Assembly: GCA_017991315.1 (NCBI GenBank)
Contig: JAGOQS010000002.1
Span: 744,001 to 808,000, forward strand
Direction of reading: 5' to 3'
DNA length: 64,000 nt
Source: Ferrovibrio sp.
GTDB taxonomy: Bacteria > Pseudomonadota > Alphaproteobacteria > Ferrovibrionales > Ferrovibrionaceae
Shown: in pieces, positions 1 through 41,781 of the stretch
Layout: each line of letters opens with the position of its first letter
Position numbering within the stretch: the stretch's first letter is position 1
Translations under genes and position numbers: made by a program
The notes under the pieces: generated by a model
Told to the model about the DNA's origin: nothing
Database searches by the model: none
What the model saw: only the letters and a program-made list of their open reading frames with translations

Positions 1-2142
1 CGCGCTGCCGAGATCAAGCAGCCGAAGCGGCGCGAAAGCCTGCTCAGCAATGCCGAGAAGGCCCGCATCAGCCGCCAGTTGGTGCTGCTGAAGGACGACG
101 TGCCGGTGAAGGAGACACTGGACGATTTCGCCATCCGCCCGCTCGACTGGCCGACGCTTGATGCCTTCCTCGCCTCGATGGAATTCCGCACCCTGCGCGG
201 CCGCCTGGAAGCGCGCGTGAAGGGCCTGGTGCCGGCGAGCAAGGCTCAGCTCACCGATCCGGATACAGCGCGCCTGCAGGATGCGCCGGAAATGGCAGCG
301 GCGCCGGCGGAAGCGCAGTATGAACTGGTGCAGGATCTGGAGCGACTGGAAGCCTGGATCCGCCACGCGGTCAAGGCCGGCATCGTGGCGGTGGATACCG
401 AGACCACCGACCTGATCGCCACCCGCGCCGAACTGGTCGGCGTGTCGATGAGTGTGGCGCCAGGCGAGGCCTGCTACATCCCGGTGGGGCATACGGCGCC
501 GAACGGCGACGGCCTGGATCTTGGCGGCGGTGGCCGGCCGAAACAGATTCCGCTGGATCAGGTGGTCGCTGCGCTGAAGCCGCTGCTGGCCGATGAAACC
601 GTGCTGAAGATCGGCCAGAACATCAAATACGACATGGTGGTGCTGGCGCGCTACGGCCTCAGCGTGGCGCCCTATGACGACACCATGCTGCTGTCCTACA
701 CGCTGGATGCCGGCAAGCATAATCACAACATGGACGATCTGGCCGAACGCCATCTCGGCCATACCACGATCAAGTTCGACGACGTGACCGGCACCGGCAA
801 GGCGCGCATCACGTTTGACCGCGTGCCGCTGGACAAGGCGCTGGCCTATGCCGCCGAGGATGCCGATATCACGCTGCGACTGCACCGCGCGCTGAAGCCA
901 CGGCTGCTGAGCGACAAGATGACCACGCTGTATGAGACCATCGAGCGGCCGATGCCGCGCGTGGTGGCGGCGATGGAGCTGGCCGGCGTGAAGGTGGACA
1001 AGGCCGAGCTTAATCGCCTGAGCGCCGATTTCGCCAACCGCATGGCTGCGCTGGAACGCGAGGCGCATGAACTGGCCGAGGAGAGCTTCAATCTCGGCTC
1101 GCCGAAGCAGCTTGGCGAAATCCTGTTCGACAAGATGTCACTGCCCGGCGGCAAGAAGGGCAAGACCGGCGCCTATGGCACCGGCGCCGATGTGCTGGAA
1201 GAATTGGCGGCGGCAGGCCACAAGCTGCCGCAGGTGGTGCTGGACTGGCGCCAGTTGCAGAAGCTGAAGGGCACCTACACCGATGCGCTGCAGGAGCAGA
1301 TCGGCAGCGATGGCCGCGTCCATACCTCCTATTCGCTGGCCGCCACCAGTACCGGCCGCTTTGCCTCTTCCGATCCCAACCTGCAGAATATCCCGATCCG
1401 CACCGAGGAGGGCCGCAAGATCCGCCGCGCCTTCGTGGCCGAACCGGGACACAAGCTGATCAGCGCCGACTATTCACAGATCGAATTGCGCATCCTGGCG
1501 CATATCGCCGATATCGGCGCGCTGAAGCAGGCCTTCCTTGATGGCGTGGACATCCATGCCCTGACCGCCAGCCAGGTATTCAACGTGCCGATCGAAGGCA
1601 TGGACCCGATCGTGCGCCGTTCCGCCAAGGCGATCAATTTTGGCATCATCTATGGCATGAGCGCCTTTGGCCTCGCCGCCCAGCTCGGCATCCCGCAGCG
1701 CGAGGCCGCCAACTATATCGATGCCTACTTCAAGCGCTATCCCGGCATCCGCGACTATATGGACCGGACCAAGAAGCAGGCGCATGAAATCGGTTATGTC
1801 AGCACGGCCTTCGGCCGCCGCATCCATCTACCGAACATCAACTCGAAGAATCCCGCCGAACGCTCCTTCCTGGAGCGCGCCGCGATCAACGCACCGATCC
1901 AGGGCACGGCGGCCGACGTGATCAAGCGCGCCATGGCCCGGCTGCCCGATGCGCTCCGTGCCGAGAAGCTGAGCGCCCGCATGCTGCTGCAGGTGCATGA
2001 CGAACTGGTATTCGAGGCCCCGGAGGCCGAGGTTGATGCAACCATCGCTGTTGCCAAACGGGTGATGGAAGGTGCGGCAAGCTTGAGCGTGCCGCTCGAT
2101 GTCGAGGCCGGCGTCGGCGACAATTGGGACGACGCGCACTGA
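1..2142 (+). CDS. polA: DNA polymerase I, 3' part (5' end outside window)
   Basis: Family A DNA polymerase used in repair and Okazaki fragment maturation. The reading frame is open from base 1, so the N-terminal 5'-3' exonuclease lies upstream and only its junction is seen. The 3'-5' exonuclease domain follows, with its acidic motifs intact: DTET near base 394, a QNIKYD motif near 615, and EDADIT near 856, so proofreading is probably active. The polymerase domain has motif A (DYSQIELRI, near 1468), motif B (RRSAKAINFGIIYG, near 1615) and motif C (VHDELVF, near 1993). It ends with TGA at 2140-2142. Identification is secure; only the missing 5' end limits the entry. Confidence 0.97.
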   Translation, partial: RAAEIKQPKRRESLLSNAEKARISRQLVLLKDDVPVKETLDDFAIRPLDWPTLDAFLASMEFRTLRGRLEARVKGLVPASKAQLTDPDTARLQDAPEMAAAPAEAQYELVQDLERLEAWIRHAVKAGIVAVDTETTDLIATRAELVGVSMSVAPGEACYIPVGHTAPNGDGLDLGGGGRPKQIPLDQVVAALKPLLADETVLKIGQNIKYDMVVLARYGLSVAPYDDTMLLSYTLDAGKHNHNMDDLAERHLGHTTIKFDDVTGTGKARITFDRVPLDKALAYAAEDADITLRLHRALKPRLLSDKMTTLYETIERPMPRVVAAMELAGVKVDKAELNRLSADFANRMAALEREAHELAEESFNLGSPKQLGEILFDKMSLPGGKKGKTGAYGTGADVLEELAAAGHKLPQVVLDWRQLQKLKGTYTDALQEQIGSDGRVHTSYSLAATSTGRFASSDPNLQNIPIRTEEGRKIRRAFVAEPGHKLISADYSQIELRILAHIADIGALKQAFLDGVDIHALTASQVFNVPIEGMDPIVRRSAKAINFGIIYGMSAFGLAAQLGIPQREAANYIDAYFKRYPGIRDYMDRTKKQAHEIGYVSTAFGRRIHLPNINSKNPAERSFLERAAINAPIQGTAADVIKRAMARLPDALRAEKLSARMLLQVHDELVFEAPEAEVDATIAVAKRVMEGAASLSVPLDVEAGVGDNWDDAH

Positions 2143-13919: not shown

Positions 13920-13996
13920 CGGAGTGTAGCTCAGCCTGGTAGAGCACTAGCTTCGGGAGCTAGGGGCCGGAGGTTCGAATCCTCTCACTCCGACCA
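13920..13996 (+). tRNA. tRNA-Pro (anticodon CGG)
   Basis: A 77-nt cloverleaf. Acceptor arms CGGAGTG and CACTCCG pair fully; the anticodon stem CTAGC/GCTAG encloses the loop TTCGGGA, giving anticodon CGG followed by G37, as in proline tRNAs. The T arm has GGTTCGAATCC and the CCA end is encoded. The precursor is flanked by an 8-bp inverted repeat (13909-13916 and 13997-14004), and the last 12 nt overlap the 3' end of the convergent exporter gene. Confidence 0.97.
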
Positions 13997-32708: not shown

Positions 32709-33884
32709 TTAGGCGGCGGCAGCCGGCTTGAAGCTGGCCTTCACCTGGGCGAAGGCCCAGTCGAGCCAGGGCAGCAGGGCCGCGGTATCCTTGGGCTCGA
32801 CGGTGGCGCCGCCCCAGATGCGCAGGCCTGGAGGGGCATCGCGATAGGCACCGATATCCAGCGCCACGCCTTCCTTCTCCAGCACCGAGGCGACCTGCTT
32901 GGCCGCCGCATCCTGATCCTTCGGACCCAGCGCGGTGAACCAGGGATCGACGATCTTGAGGCAGATCGAGGTATTGGAGCGGATCGTCTTGTCGGCGCAG
33001 AGGAAACCGGCCCAGTCGGACTTGGCGACCCAGCCCTCAAGGGCGGCGAGGTTGGCTTCCGAACGCGCCTTCATGCCGGCGAGGCCGCCGATCGACTGGC
33101 CCCATTTCAGCGCATCGATGATATCCTCGACGCAGAGCATGGAGGGCGTGTTGATGGTCTCGCCCTTGAAGATGCCGTCGATCAGCTTGCCGTCCTTGGC
33201 CATGCGGAAGATTTTCGGCAGCGGCCAGGCGGGCGTGTAGGTTTCGAGACGCTGCACGGCGCGCGGGCTGAGCACGATCATGCCATGCGCGGCCTCGCCA
33301 CCGGTCGCCTTCTGCCACGACCAGGTAGTGACATCCAGCTTGTCCCAGGGCAGGTCCATGGCGAATACGGCGGAGGTGGCGTCGCAGATGCTCAAGCCTT
33401 CGCGGTCTGCCTTGATCCAGTCGCCATTCGGCACGCGCACGCCCGAGGTGGTGCCGTTCCAGGTGAACACCACGTCGCGGCTCCAGTCGACCTTGGCAAG
33501 ATCGACGATCTCGCCATAGCCGGCCTTCAGGCTACGCACGTCGGTGAGCTTGAGTTCCTTGGTGATGTCGGAAGCCCAGCCGGAGCCGAAGCTCTCCCAG
33601 CCGAGCACGTCGACGCCGCGCGCACCAAGCAATGACCACAGTGCCATCTCCACGGCGCCGGTATCGGAAGCGGGCACGATGCCGATCTTGTAATCCGCCG
33701 GGATGCCGAGGATCTGGCGGTGCAGCTCGATGGCTTCGACCAAGCGCGCCTTGCCCTCTTTGGAGCGATGCGAGCGACCGAGCAGGGCGTTTTTGAGGAT
33801 TTCGGGGGTCCAGCCGGGGCGCTTGGCGCAGGGGCCGGAGGAGAAATGCGCGACAGCGGGACGCGCGGTAGGCTTACCAGTCAT
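32709..33884 (-). CDS. serC: phosphoserine aminotransferase
   Basis: Second step of serine synthesis. The 391-residue PLP enzyme has the N-terminal [13 protein letters not shown], and the PLP lysine in [15 protein letters not shown]. It belongs to the alphaproteobacterial SerC group ([15 protein letters not shown]). The start at 33884 was chosen for the GGAAGGA box eight bases upstream; an upstream extension of the frame has no similarity. Its leader contains two stacked hairpins, the nearer one covering the ribosome site. Forms a serC-serA unit. Confidence 0.95.
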
Positions 33885-33886
33885 GT

Positions 33887-33925
33887 CTCTATCCTTCCAG
33901 ATAGTAGCACTCCGTTGGGGGAGTG
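33887..33925 (-). promoter_or_regulatory. two stacked hairpins in the serC leader
   Basis: In the minus-strand leader, CACTCC/GGAGTG (33908-33913 with 33920-33925) is followed by CTATC/GATAG (33889-33893 with 33900-33904). The loop and 3' arm of the latter contain the GGAAGGA ribosome site. Short stems; regulation is inference. Confidence 0.35.
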
Positions 33926-34291
33926 TGGCCCGCAGCCCTTCTACTCCGTCAGCCGGGCCCGCCGCAATGGGGAAAGCATGACAATTCGCCGCAGGGCTCG
34001 CCGAGTCAGCCAGGGAAAATCCACTCTCCCTGTGGTTGTTGTTTACGCTAGGGCATGAACCCGACAACACAGGGCAAAGCTCTGGGGATTTTTCCTGAAA
34101 ACCAACAATCCCAGCAACACCGAGTGCATTAGCATTGGGTTATATTTCCCGATAAGTGCATGATCTTTCCAATATTTTTTGAATGATTCGTGTGGATATT
34201 TTTGCTAAAGGCCAATCCAACCCTTTAATTACGTCGTATCAAGATCATTCATAAACCAGCGCTCCCCAGCGCCTTGCCCTAAAGGTAATCC
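33926..34291. other. intergenic region upstream of serC and the chemoreceptor gene
   Basis: No credible gene. The right half (about 34120-34250) is clearly AT-rich relative to the window and probably carries the chemoreceptor promoter; TTATATTT occurs at about 34140. A near-match to the DnaA box (TGTGGATAT) lies at about 34191. Nothing else specific is seen. Confidence 0.4.
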
Positions 34292-38564: not shown

Positions 38565-39660
38565 GAGAGAGCCAAGCCTACCCCGGAAAACCCGGCTTGG
38601 CTATACTGTTCCGGTGACGCGCGCCAAGAAATCCCCTGCTGCACCTGCGAAAGAACCGGCGAAAAAGCCGGTGAAAGTGCCGACTTTGGCGGACATCGCC
38701 TCGGCCGTGGGCGTCACCAAGATCACCGTTTCGCGCGCCTTCAACACGCCCGGCCAGCTTTCGCCCGACACGCTGGCGAAAATCCGCGCCACCGCGAAGA
38801 AACTCGGCTACACGCCGAACCTGCTGGCCGGCTCGCTCTCATCGGCGCGCAGCAAACTGATCGTCGCCCTGGTGCCCAGCATCAGCGGCGCCATGTTCAC
38901 CAGCACCATGCAGCAGGTGGCGGCACATCTGCAGGATCAGGGCTATCAGCTCCTGATCGGCCAGGCCGGCTATGACGAAGCCAGCGAGGAAGCCCTGCTC
39001 GGCGCCGTGATCGGGCGCCGGCCGGATGGCATCATCCTCACCGGCATCGTGCATTCCGAAGCCTCGCGGCGGCAGTTGCGCGCCGCGCGCATCCCGGTGG
39101 TGGAAACCTGGGACCTGACGCCGAAACCGATCGACATGCTGGTCGGATTTTCGCATCCGGCCATCGGCAAGGCGGCGGCCGAGCATCTCTATGAACGCGG
39201 CTGCCGCCGCGCCGCCGTGATTTCGCCGGACGACCGCCGCGCCAGGCTGCGTGCCGCGGCCTTCGTGGCACGCTTCCGCCAGCTTTGCGGCTGGCGCGCG
39301 CCGGTGCTGGAGGCGCAAGCGCCGACACCAATGGGCGATGGCCGCAGCGGCCTGGCGGAATTGCTGCACCGGCACGGCGATATCGACGGTGTGTTCTGCG
39401 GCTCGGACAATCTGGCGCTTGGCGCCGCGATCGAAGCCAAGGCGCGCGGCATTGCCGTGCCGCAGACACTCAAACTGATCGGCTATGGCGACCAGAGCTA
39501 TGGCAAGGATGCCGACCCGCCGCTGACCAGCCTGCGTATCGAGGGCGGCGAGATCGGCCGCCTGGCCGCCGCCATGCTGGTGGCGCGTGCCACCGGCCAG
39601 CCGGTCGCGCAACGTATCGTCGATGTCGGCTTCACCCTGGTGCAGCGCGGCAGCAGCTAG
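38563..39660 (+). CDS. LacI-family transcriptional regulator (GntR-like)
   Basis: A DNA-binding repressor with an N-terminal LacI helix-turn-helix (TLADIASAVGVTKITVSRAF) and hinge (LGYTPNLLAGSLSSARS), then a periplasmic-binding-type sensor domain. Before the HTH is a Lys/Ala/Pro tail. Two starts are possible: ATG 38563, which lies in the operator, and GTG 38614, which has TATACT a few bases upstream and could even be leaderless; neither has a clear ribosome site. The sensor domain resembles gluconate-type repressors, so the inducer is probably a sugar acid related to the neighbouring dehydratase substrate. Confidence 0.9.
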   Translation: MREPSLPRKTRLGYTVPVTRAKKSPAAPAKEPAKKPVKVPTLADIASAVGVTKITVSRAFNTPGQLSPDTLAKIRATAKKLGYTPNLLAGSLSSARSKLIVALVPSISGAMFTSTMQQVAAHLQDQGYQLLIGQAGYDEASEEALLGAVIGRRPDGIILTGIVHSEASRRQLRAARIPVVETWDLTPKPIDMLVGFSHPAIGKAAAEHLYERGCRRAAVISPDDRRARLRAAAFVARFRQLCGWRAPVLEAQAPTPMGDGRSGLAELLHRHGDIDGVFCGSDNLALGAAIEAKARGIAVPQTLKLIGYGDQSYGKDADPPLTSLRIEGGEIGRLAAAMLVARATGQPVAQRIVDVGFTLVQRGSS

Positions 39661-39668
39661 AGCGCGGC

Positions 39669-40232
39669 TTAAGCGTCCAGCTTCTTGGCCTGGCCCTCGG
39701 CCATTTCCAGCAGGCGCGGCGCCCGCATCGCCACGTCGCTGAGAATGGTTTCCGCCACCGTGAGGCGCTTGCGGGCGTCCGGATCGAGCAGATGGCTCAT
39801 CTGCGCGCGGTCTATATGTGCCACCGTCTCCTTCATTTCCCACAACGTGGCGAGGAACACCTTCTGCGCCCCCATCGGCAGCGTGGAAGCGCTTTCCAGC
39901 GCCGGAAAGACACGCAGGATCACATCGATCTTCATGCGCAGCAGGTTGGTGATCAGCTTGGTGTGATAGTCGCGCAACTTCTCCAGCGCTGCCTTCTCGG
40001 CATGCGCCATGCGATCCTCGATCAGTACGATCACGCCTTCGATTTCGGTCAGCGATTCGCGGTATTCGTAATACGGCTCGAAGGCCAGCTTGGAGATGCG
40101 CTCGATGGCGCTGTCCGCCTTCTTGGCGGCACGGCGCGTCTGCTTCTCCAGTGCCTGCAGCAGCGACTGGATCTCGGCAAGGGTATAGGTCTTATGGGCG
40201 ATACCGACCATGGCAGCGCCCATATTAACCAT
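39669..40232 (-). CDS. helical protein of unknown function coupled to the manganese exporter gene
   Basis: About 187 residues, mostly amphipathic helix (Ala, Leu, Glu, Lys and Arg throughout; EIQSLLQALEKQTRRAAKKA; IEGVIVLIEDRMAHAEKAA), no signal peptide, no membrane segment and no Cys. I do not recognise the family. The ATG at 40232 lies just after the exporter stop (40235-40237), so the two are probably cotranslated and both lie under the manganese riboswitch. A role connected with manganese is inference from position only. Confidence 0.65.
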   Translation of the reverse strand: MVNMGAAMVGIAHKTYTLAEIQSLLQALEKQTRRAAKKADSAIERISKLAFEPYYEYRESLTEIEGVIVLIEDRMAHAEKAALEKLRDYHTKLITNLLRMKIDVILRVFPALESASTLPMGAQKVFLATLWEMKETVAHIDRAQMSHLLDPDARKRLTVAETILSDVAMRAPRLLEMAEGQAKKLDA

Positions 40233-40234
40233 GA

Positions 40235-40801
40235 CTACCAACCGATCAACGTGACAACACCGACAATCGCGAAGGCCGCTGCCGCCAGCTTGCGCACCAG
40301 GTCAAGCGGCAGCCGCCGCATCAGCTTCTCGCCCATGAAAACCACCGGCGCATTGACCGCGAACAGGCCGAGCGTGGAGGCCGCCGTCACCGTCCAGACA
40401 TCGCTGTAGCGGGCTGCCAGCGCTGTGGTGGCAACTTGAGTCTTGTCGCCGATCTCAGCCAGGAAGAATGCCACCAGGGTGCCCATGAAGGCGCCGAAGC
40501 GGCTCATTTTCAGCGGTGCGTCATCATCTTCCAGCGTATCGGGCTTGAGCGTCCAAAGCGCCATGGCGATGAAGGAGGCGCCCAGCGCCCAGCGCAGGTA
40601 TTTCGGCTCCACCAGATCGTCGAGCCACACCCCGGCCCAGGCGGCAAGGGCATGGTTGGCCACGGTGGCGACCAGGATGCCGGCCATGATCGGCCAGGGG
40701 CGGCGGAATTTCGCGGCAAGCAGGAGGGAGAGAAGCTGGGTCTTGTCGCCGATCTCGGCGATGGCAACGAGGCCGAACACAGTGAAAAAAGCTTCGAGCA
40801 T
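40235..40801 (-). CDS. TMEM165/GDT1 (UPF0016) family manganese exporter
   Basis: A 188-residue six-helix inner-membrane protein with two copies of the family motif EIGDKTQ (about residues 16-22 and 116-122), each opening one of two homologous halves. Family members export Mn2+ (or exchange Ca2+/Mn2+). It is preceded by a yybP-ykoY manganese riboswitch, which fits this function well. The start ATG has no good ribosome site, consistent with translation controlled by RNA structure. Confidence 0.92.
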   Translation of the reverse strand: MLEAFFTVFGLVAIAEIGDKTQLLSLLLAAKFRRPWPIMAGILVATVANHALAAWAGVWLDDLVEPKYLRWALGASFIAMALWTLKPDTLEDDDAPLKMSRFGAFMGTLVAFFLAEIGDKTQVATTALAARYSDVWTVTAASTLGLFAVNAPVVFMGEKLMRRLPLDLVRKLAAAAFAIVGVVTLIGW

Positions 40802-40815
40802 TGGGGCGGCACCAT

Positions 40816-40864
40816 GGGATCAGGCATCGACAAGGCCAATGGCTTACCCACCGCGCCCGATCCC
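40816..40864 (-). promoter_or_regulatory. likely expression platform of the manganese riboswitch
   Basis: GGGATCAGGC (40816-40825) and GCCCGATCCC (40855-40864) pair with one mismatch between the aptamer and the exporter start. No T run follows, so control of translation rather than termination is suggested. Confidence 0.4.
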
Positions 40865-40882
40865 CGGTTGCGATGGATGAAG

Positions 40883-41030
40883 CCAAAGGTCTCGCCAAGC
40901 CTAAGGGTGAACACCCTAAGGGCCGGAAGCGCCAAGGGTGCCGGCTGCTGGTCCGGCCATCCCTAGTCTGTTGACGCTTCCCCCGCTCGCGGTCCGAATC
41001 CGGGCCGGGCGGGAGGCTACTCCCCAATGG
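40883..41030 (-). ncRNA. yybP-ykoY manganese riboswitch
   Basis: On the minus strand the leader contains the aptamer's conserved blocks in order: TTGGGGAGTAGCC (about 41015-41027), GTCAACAGACTAGG (about 40963-40976), and the closing GAGACCTTTGG (about 40883-40893), with GC-rich variable stems between. These are the diagnostic parts of the proteobacterial yybP-ykoY class. It directly precedes an UPF0016 manganese exporter gene, the classic regulated partner, so Mn2+ binding should turn the exporter on. Confidence 0.9.
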
Positions 41031-41253
41031 AACGCTGCCTCTATAGCCTGCGGCGGCCAATCGCGCCAGAGCCTCTCTGACGGATAAACACAGCATATAA
41101 CCAACAGGCTGCATATAAGGGTAATTTACACCAAGGTATTGGCAGGTTTAGACAAATTCCGTCATGTTGTTGCAGACCGGGCTTTTCCAGATTGGCCAAG
41201 GGTGCTATTCTACGTTTCACATACTGAAACCGGCAGCCTGAACAGCCCGAGCC

Positions 41254-41781
41254 ATGCAGACCCCTCCGAACTACCTCAAAGCCTGGCGCCTCTATTCCAA
41301 GCTGACCCTGACCGAGGCGGCGGAACGGGCTGACTGCACCCCTTCGGCATTGAGCAAACTGGAAAACAGTCGCCTGCGTGTGACCGACAAATGGCTGCAT
41401 CGCCTGGCAGCGGTCTATGGCCGCAGCCCGGCCGCCCTGCTGAGCGCCCCCGGCCTTGGTGCCGATACCGACCTTGTGCCGGGCAATATCGATCCCGAGG
41501 ATGCCGCCGGCGTGGCGAAGGCCTGGGCCAGGTTGTCGCCCAGCCACCGCACCCATCTGCTCGGGATCATCGAGGCGGTTGCTACCGGCGACCGCGAGGA
41601 ACAAGCCTTCCTGGATGCCGATATTCATGCCCGCGATATCGGCTCGGCCCTCGGCCTTCAGCTCAAGGCGGTGCAGCGTCTGCATCTGATTGAGCGGGCG
41701 CTGAAGCAGCGTGCCGAACGCGAAGCCACGGCCGGCCGCACCGGCGTTGTGGTCGAGCAGGGTTTGCCGGAAAACTACTGA
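41254..41781 (+). CDS. XRE-family regulator
   Basis: A 175-residue protein with an N-terminal Cro/C1-type helix-turn-helix (WRLYSKLTLTEAAERADCTPSALSKLE) and a C-terminal helical region of unknown type. Divergent from the manganese riboswitch transcript. Target genes unknown. Confidence 0.82.
   Translation: MQTPPNYLKAWRLYSKLTLTEAAERADCTPSALSKLENSRLRVTDKWLHRLAAVYGRSPAALLSAPGLGADTDLVPGNIDPEDAAGVAKAWARLSPSHRTHLLGIIEAVATGDREEQAFLDADIHARDIGSALGLQLKAVQRLHLIERALKQRAEREATAGRTGVVVEQGLPENY

Follow-up and report, generated by a model that had tools for sequence, protein, structure and literature searches.

The closest described relatives of the RNA considered here are Mn2+ riboswitches of the yybP-ykoY family (Rfam RF00080), in which the metal stabilises a weak helix, P1.1, against strand invasion (PMC6754395). 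In Escherichia coli, mntP is described as being off in the absence of Mn, with the metal relieving Rho-dependent termination at this gene partly in vivo and fully in vitro (PMC11647493); in Bordetella pertussis, the exporter BP3410 is induced by Mn via its riboswitch (PMC8546581). For Magnetospirillum, an alphaproteobacterium according to the paper concerned, transcription is tabulated as starting within the Rfam match, five bases from its edge (PMC9549626), which places the 5' end of that RNA close to the 5' strand of the aptamer helix P1. Here, we analyse a leader of this family at positions 40816-41030, on the minus strand of a 64,000-nucleotide stretch of Ferrovibrio sp. DNA (hereafter the window), where it precedes a gene for a GDT1/UPF0016 cation exporter.

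Sequence comparison supports the following parts of our explanation: the aptamer, the exporter and a pair of conserved, interleaved helices, termed a/a' and b/b'. Beyond this, we consider it rather probable that the leader is a yybP-ykoY Mn2+ ON switch, as we infer its direction, which raises expression of the GDT1 exporter in Mn2+ excess via translation initiation.

The aptamer and its exporter gene

The interval 40816-41030 extends exactly from the 5' strand of P1 through the end of strand b'. The leader and the gene that follows it are made up of these features:

40859..41037, minus strand: aptamer match to RF00080 (cmscan of a 501-nt region; 42.8 bits, E 2.7e-10, model positions 1-177 of 177)
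41024..41030, minus strand: p, the P1 5' strand CCAUUGG, followed by the block GGAGUAG at 41023-41017; read from the sequence, its role assigned by homology to the solved aptamer (PMC6754395)
40969..40977, minus strand: aptamer block GCGUCAACA; sequence and RF00080 alignment
40888..40896, minus strand: L3 block GGCGAGACC, whose final two bases open strand a; sequence
40870..40889, minus strand: a, the P1 3' strand plus an extension, CCUUUGGCUUCAUCCAUCGC; a/a' covariation in alignment A1 and in the held-out alignment A2 (both described below)
40855..40864, minus strand: b, GGGAUCGGGC, within the a/a' hairpin loop; b/b' covariation
40836..40854, minus strand: a', GCGGUGGGUAAGCCAUUGG, whose 3' end repeats CCAUUGG; helix tests, alignments A1 and A2, sequence
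40816..40825, minus strand: b', GCCUGAUCCC, ending 14 nt before the start codon; helix tests, alignments A1 and A2, sequence
40235..40801, minus strand: gene for a GDT1/UPF0016 cation exporter of 188 amino acids; PF01169, E 4.3e-45

A first-pass annotation, made from the letters of the DNA, had placed a yybP-ykoY aptamer with its diagnostic blocks ahead of a UPF0016 exporter gene, and both parts of that claim stand. The RF00080 match spans the entire model, the core blocks (GGAGUAG, GCGUCAACA and GGCGAGACC, comprising the L1 and L3 blocks) follow one another in the expected order on the minus strand, and the downstream product contains two GDT1/UPF0016 stretches. We take the sequence ahead of the GDT1 gene to be a genuine yybP-ykoY Mn2+ aptamer. 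Its P1 helix would join CCAUUGG to CCUUUGG with two U-U mismatches, and the RF00080 consensus structure, as aligned to the window, leaves the 5' strand of P1 unpaired.

The aptamer is the sole RF00080 match at E <=0.001 in its own genome (partial, 72.59% complete), and the near-complete genome G005 of the same species likewise holds only one at that threshold. Across the family, the RF00080 search found matches in 12 of 18 genomes (order-level and family-level searches covered an identical set of 18), and the aptamers of G004, G010 and G014 exceed the RF00080 gathering score. All 10 genomes of the genus that were examined carry a Mn riboswitch upstream of GDT1, nine of them recognised via RF00080 and the tenth, G012, via sequence and R1, a covariance model of the expression platform described below. 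The G012 leader (L210, about 464-562, plus strand) scores 54.2 bits with R1 and has no RF00080 match at E 0.001, and the aptamer blocks are legible in its sequence just 5' of the R1 match.

The interleaved helices of the expression platform

The aptamer class is already known; the interleaved platform is not covered by the RF00080 match, because that match runs 3' into the platform and stops inside b, leaving a' and b' outside. The imperfect stem of 10 bp that the first-pass annotation saw between the aptamer and the start codon is b/b', one of two interleaved helices arranged in the order a-b-a'-b'. The stem exists and is conserved in relatives, but the description was incomplete, as the second helix, a/a', which competes with P1, had been missed. 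From L3 to the start codon, the same order is common to leaders ahead of GDT1. Strand a starts with the 3' strand of P1, and the 3' end of a' in the window, CCAUUGG, is identical to the 5' strand of P1; a' is therefore able to replace that strand. The loop closed by a/a' contains strand b; its partner b', which forms 10 bp with it including one G-U, ends close to the start codon (14 nt in the window; median 12 nt with quartiles of 9 and 14 among 75 leaders). In the window alone the b/b' stem is not significant, since shuffling its 3' zone gave an equally good stem in 22 of 200 trials, and we count it as real because it is conserved in relatives, not on the strength of window statistics. As duplexes, a/a' and b/b' in the window reach -25.4 and -18.6 kcal/mol, against -4.5 kcal/mol for P1. 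With P1 so weak and a/a' so strong, the resting state should therefore be one without P1.

The comparative set derives from 115 loci (L001-L115) read by an anchor script, which skipped 37 for missing anchors (some of them, such as L009 and L110, do hold the RNA); removal of the duplicates L007 and L115 gave 76. After removal of L049 for a wrong start, and corrections to L025 (its anchor) and L008 (its start), 75 leaders remained, 74 of which passed a length filter into the zone and helix tests. Mean helix scores there were 27.8 for a/a' (16.8 shuffled, 17.1 with swapped partners) and 29.9 for b/b' (19.7 shuffled, 22.8 swapped). A zone scan returned a with a' and b with b' as the strong conserved partnerships, with b as the single strong partner of b' among the zones tested.

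Alignment A1 (MAFFT) comprises 64 of the 75 leaders, the window's own included, and is drawn mainly from Alphaproteobacteria (the window's class, judging from named relatives) together with one betaproteobacterium (L018); left out were L008, L023, L025, L043, L046, L054, L066, L090, L091, L096 and L114, as near-duplicates or for odd length or origin. When its column pairs with at least 45 sequences were scanned without supervision, the top seven all fell within a/a' or b/b'. Two-sided compensatory changes occur in 14 of 17 pairs, which 2 of 500 shuffles attain, and 90.2% of cells are paired with a covariation score of 0.454; none of 500 shuffles reaches either value or the number of two-sided cells, and these pair counts are partly circular, since the 17 pairs were picked on A1 itself. 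A shift of the partners by a single column reduces the paired cells to 48.3 or 51.0%. When A1 is thinned to 42 leaders, a fraction of 0.890 of the cells is paired, whereas shuffles yield at most 0.806.

R1 was built with b/b' only, without a/a', and was run on 61 loci outside the class: two E. coli leaders and 59 loci from a phylum search. That search gave 140 genomes with a match, from which 66 loci were fetched (26 + 40), and seven same-class loci (L128, L129, L135, L137, L138, L144, L149) were excluded from this held-out test. R1 matched 51 of the 61 at E <=0.01, constituting alignment A2, and missed L117 (E. coli mntP), L118 (E. coli alx), L134, L152, L159, L167, L168, L174, L181 and L182. 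The top five pairs of an unsupervised scan of A2 again lie in a/a' or b/b'; at lower ranks, helix pairs are intermixed with pairs that merely share conserved columns. Two-sided changes appear in 16 of 17 pairs and 86.6% of cells are paired, values as high being found in none of 500 shuffles. Because a/a' is absent from R1, its part of A2 is an independent check, and there 6 of 7 pairs show two-sided changes with 87.8% of cells paired; the b/b' counts lean toward the model, since R1 contains that helix, and only the a/a' counts are unbiased.

R1 also matches the leaders of an MntP-like gene (L136) and of a sodium/calcium-exchanger-like gene (L060), the gene names being read from translations. 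Gene and start calls in a set of 76 loci serve as illustration only, as 12 have no core, 3 have no open reading frame and some starts are wrong. The interleaved helices are conserved well beyond the window's bacterium, including in leaders of more than one exporter family.

The start region

The first-pass annotation had judged the exporter's ribosome site poor and had seen no T run, and we find the same: no tetramer resembling a Shine-Dalgarno (SD) sequence lies 3-12 nt 5' of the GDT1 start in the window, and a consensus scan of 39600-41260 gave no terminator-like site, so that no intrinsic terminator competing with P1 was found. Among the 75 leaders, 30 have an SD-like tetramer, which lies at least partly within b' in 22 cases, compared with 12.5 expected when the b' positions of other leaders are used (relatedness not removed). 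In the zone scan of 74 leaders, the zone of the SD sequence and start showed no pairing enrichment with p, the aptamer arms, the b zone, a' or the early codons, and a weak excess only with the a zone (z 2.0). Since b' pairs with b, and the SD/start zone has no strong conserved partner among the zones tested, b/b' would be the candidate helix if the switch controls initiation via a conserved helix. A few leaders (L055, L057 and L068) contain an AUG with UGA immediately after it in the stretch that separates b' from the start codon.

Models of the switch

In the reading that we favour, it is the initiation of translation that would be controlled, without an intrinsic terminator and perhaps with Rho adding a second layer. 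Without Mn2+, a', as a copy of p, would draw a off P1, and the long a/a' hairpin would form. Strand b in its loop would then pair with b' just 5' of the start, making a pseudoknot-type clamp that bars the ribosome and leaves the leader exposed to Rho. With Mn2+, P1 would be made before a' is transcribed, the clamp would lose its base and the start site would be translated. On the duplex energies given above for P1, a/a' and b/b', P1 would win only if Mn2+ holds it before a' is made.

Several results weigh against this reading. The covariance-model check that the first-pass annotation had pointed to gave a full-length match, yet one 2.2 bits below the RF00080 gathering score of 45, for which reason a whole-window Rfam scan at the gathering threshold lists only a tRNA and a serC leader and passes over the aptamer region. 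The P1 pairing (p with a) is without covariation, scoring 11.7 with its own partners and 11.6 with swapped ones, and in the window it was equalled by 200 of 200 shuffles. An SD-like tetramer is missing in 45 of the 75 leaders, the window's included, leaving none to mask. In A1, 5 of 64 leaders, and in A2, 11 of 51, have an a'-b' linker below the length that a full a/a' stem would require on a lenient straight-line estimate. A correlation of stem length with linker length in A1 (rho 0.74; 0.71 after thinning to 42), which would favour coexistence of the two helices, was not repeated in A2 (rho -0.18, p 0.21). The leader of E. coli mntP, the best-studied terminator-less case, gives no match with R1, so the mntP experiments transfer by analogy only. 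Overall, the findings fit control near initiation, as the first-pass annotation had proposed in arguing for translational control; because of the short linkers and the 45 starts without an SD-like tetramer, we hold the direction in which b/b' acts to be no more than probable.

The short linkers, which affect 16 of 115 leaders in total, mean that a complete a/a' and a complete b/b' cannot coexist there, which argues for exchange over a full pseudoknot. They also favour an activating pseudoknot, an alternative that we rate as rather unlikely: P1 held by Mn2+ would free the base of the a/a' hairpin, and b/b' would form and promote initiation at an SD-poor start, shielding the C-rich b' from Rho, while without Mn2+ the full a/a' hairpin would prevent b/b'. 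From their topology, P1, the upper part of a/a' and b/b' should fit together, and the scarcity of SD-like tetramers suits an activator. So do two reports, one of a complete block of Rho by Mn on E. coli mntP in vitro, where translation was absent (PMC11647493), and one proposing that a pseudoknot in tisB is required for 30S and S1 binding (PMC7708055). Against it, the overlap of SD-like tetramers with b' beyond expectation resembles masking, and the stem-linker correlation of A1 favours coexistence of a/a' and b/b', though it is unrepeated in A2. As proof of a standing pseudoknot, that correlation was dropped for the same lack of replication. Conserved interleaved helices, one of which ends near the ribosome-binding site (RBS), resemble a translational riboswitch with an RBS-proximal pseudoknot; the two may or may not form at the same time. 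The broader proposal that Proteobacterial Mn riboswitches share a second structural unit, an RBS-proximal pseudoknot steered by P1 and, in its boldest form, a Mn2+-promoted activator, seems to us doubtful. If true in that form, a pseudoknot would activate an SD-less mRNA and hide a Rho loading site, and the switch would build an activator instead of releasing a blocked site.

We regard as improbable an explanation by Rho only, in which the platform would govern Rho loading in the leader, translation would not be directly regulated and a/a' would be the 3'-end structure of the terminated RNA. Transcriptional fusions of E. coli mntP speak for it, with changes of ~23-28-fold under bicyclomycin and ~25-30-fold under bicyclomycin with Mn (PMC11647493), although such fusions do not test translation and R1 finds no match in the mntP leader. 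In Bordetella, the authors interpret a leader RNA of ~200 nt as the product of premature termination in the absence of Mn (PMC8546581). The place of b' before the start codon, kept within the narrow spacing given above, would be needless for Rho. Masking of the start codon by the aptamer, whereby the freed P1 5' strand CAUUGGGG would pair with CCCCAAUG over the start codon in eight perfect bp, is so improbable that we reject it, since 33 of 200 shuffles equal this pairing in the window and the comparison of 74 leaders contradicts it (mean 15.6 against 15.3 shuffled; zone scan z -0.6).

The neighbouring gene and other features

Beside the exporter gene lies a gene for a helical protein, which the first-pass annotation had taken to be coupled to GDT1 and probably responsive to the same signal:

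39669..40211 (first-pass start 40232), minus strand: neighbour gene, function unassigned, not shown to be part of the system; comparison with two relatives

This coupling does not hold up in relatives. Among the 10 genomes of the genus, the neighbour and GDT1, measured from match to match, are 5-30 nt apart in four (G000, G005, G006, G008) and 114-1329 nt apart in five, while G010 has them on separate contigs; operon coupling was rejected as not conserved. Two other family genomes that have the gene, G004 and G014, carry it and GDT1 on separate contigs, and in G012 a hairpin and then a T run can be seen by eye between the two. Within the genus, the gene is a variable neighbour only. A Mn2+ response by read-through is possible in the window's species and is not supported as a conserved feature.

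The start at 40232 is also doubtful: in two close relatives (L187, L188), the frame opened by that ATG is closed after six codons, which makes the ATG at 40211 the likelier start. For the product, neither Pfam nor NCBIfam gave a family over cut-off, and none of 10 scanned relatives of it has a Pfam family over cut-off; nothing, therefore, ties the neighbour to manganese. A distant paralogue of the protein (39669-40232) at G000:C2:775093-775563 shares 24% identity, and its frame continues into a C-terminal part that by eye resembles a helix-turn-helix.

Elsewhere in the window, a serC leader RNA (RF00517) lies at 33884-33935 on the minus strand, its 61.8 bits well above the gathering score, and a tRNA-Pro with anticodon CGG at 13920-13996 on the plus strand. 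A divergent gene at 41254-41781 on the plus strand encodes an N-terminal helix-turn-helix (PF13560, E 5.5e-11) and starts ~220 bases upstream of the aptamer.

Comparison with known manganese riboswitches

In the Mn-riboswitch literature searched, which excluded two 2015 founding papers, no description of an a-b-a'-b' platform was found, and the route from Mn2+ to the ribosome site in terminator-less riboswitches is apparently less worked out than the terminator route. Covarying interleaved helices ahead of the start, across more than one exporter family, offer a concrete mechanism that can be tested by mutation. As a practical gain, the platform model R1 recovered one copy that the Rfam model missed, that of G012.

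With the RF00080 family, the window's leader shares the conserved blocks and a downstream exporter gene, and by homology the switch logic of P1; it differs in a score just below the gathering cut-off and in having a' and b' outside the model match. The E. coli mntP leader is likewise that of a Mn exporter, ON with Mn, and both translation and Rho are described as its targets (PMC11647493). Its helices can tentatively be laid out in the order a-b-a'-b' as well, with b as GCUGGGG at -48..-42 and b' as CCCCGGU at -19..-13, although this helix list was arranged by eye and is weaker evidence. In contrast to the window's exporter gene, mntP belongs to another exporter family, a large hairpin is inserted in its a/a' loop, and Rho action was demonstrated there and not in the window's leader. 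Bordetella pertussis BP3410, likened to the window's leader by its description, is Mn-induced, as we propose for GDT1, and differs in that early-ended transcripts were inferred there (PMC8546581). Riboswitches of the terminator type (the Xanthomonas oryzae aptamer and those of Gram-positives) have in common with the window's leader the competition for a strand of P1.1, but their competing hairpin is described as an intrinsic terminator (PMC6754395), whereas that of the window's leader is tied to an RBS-proximal helix.
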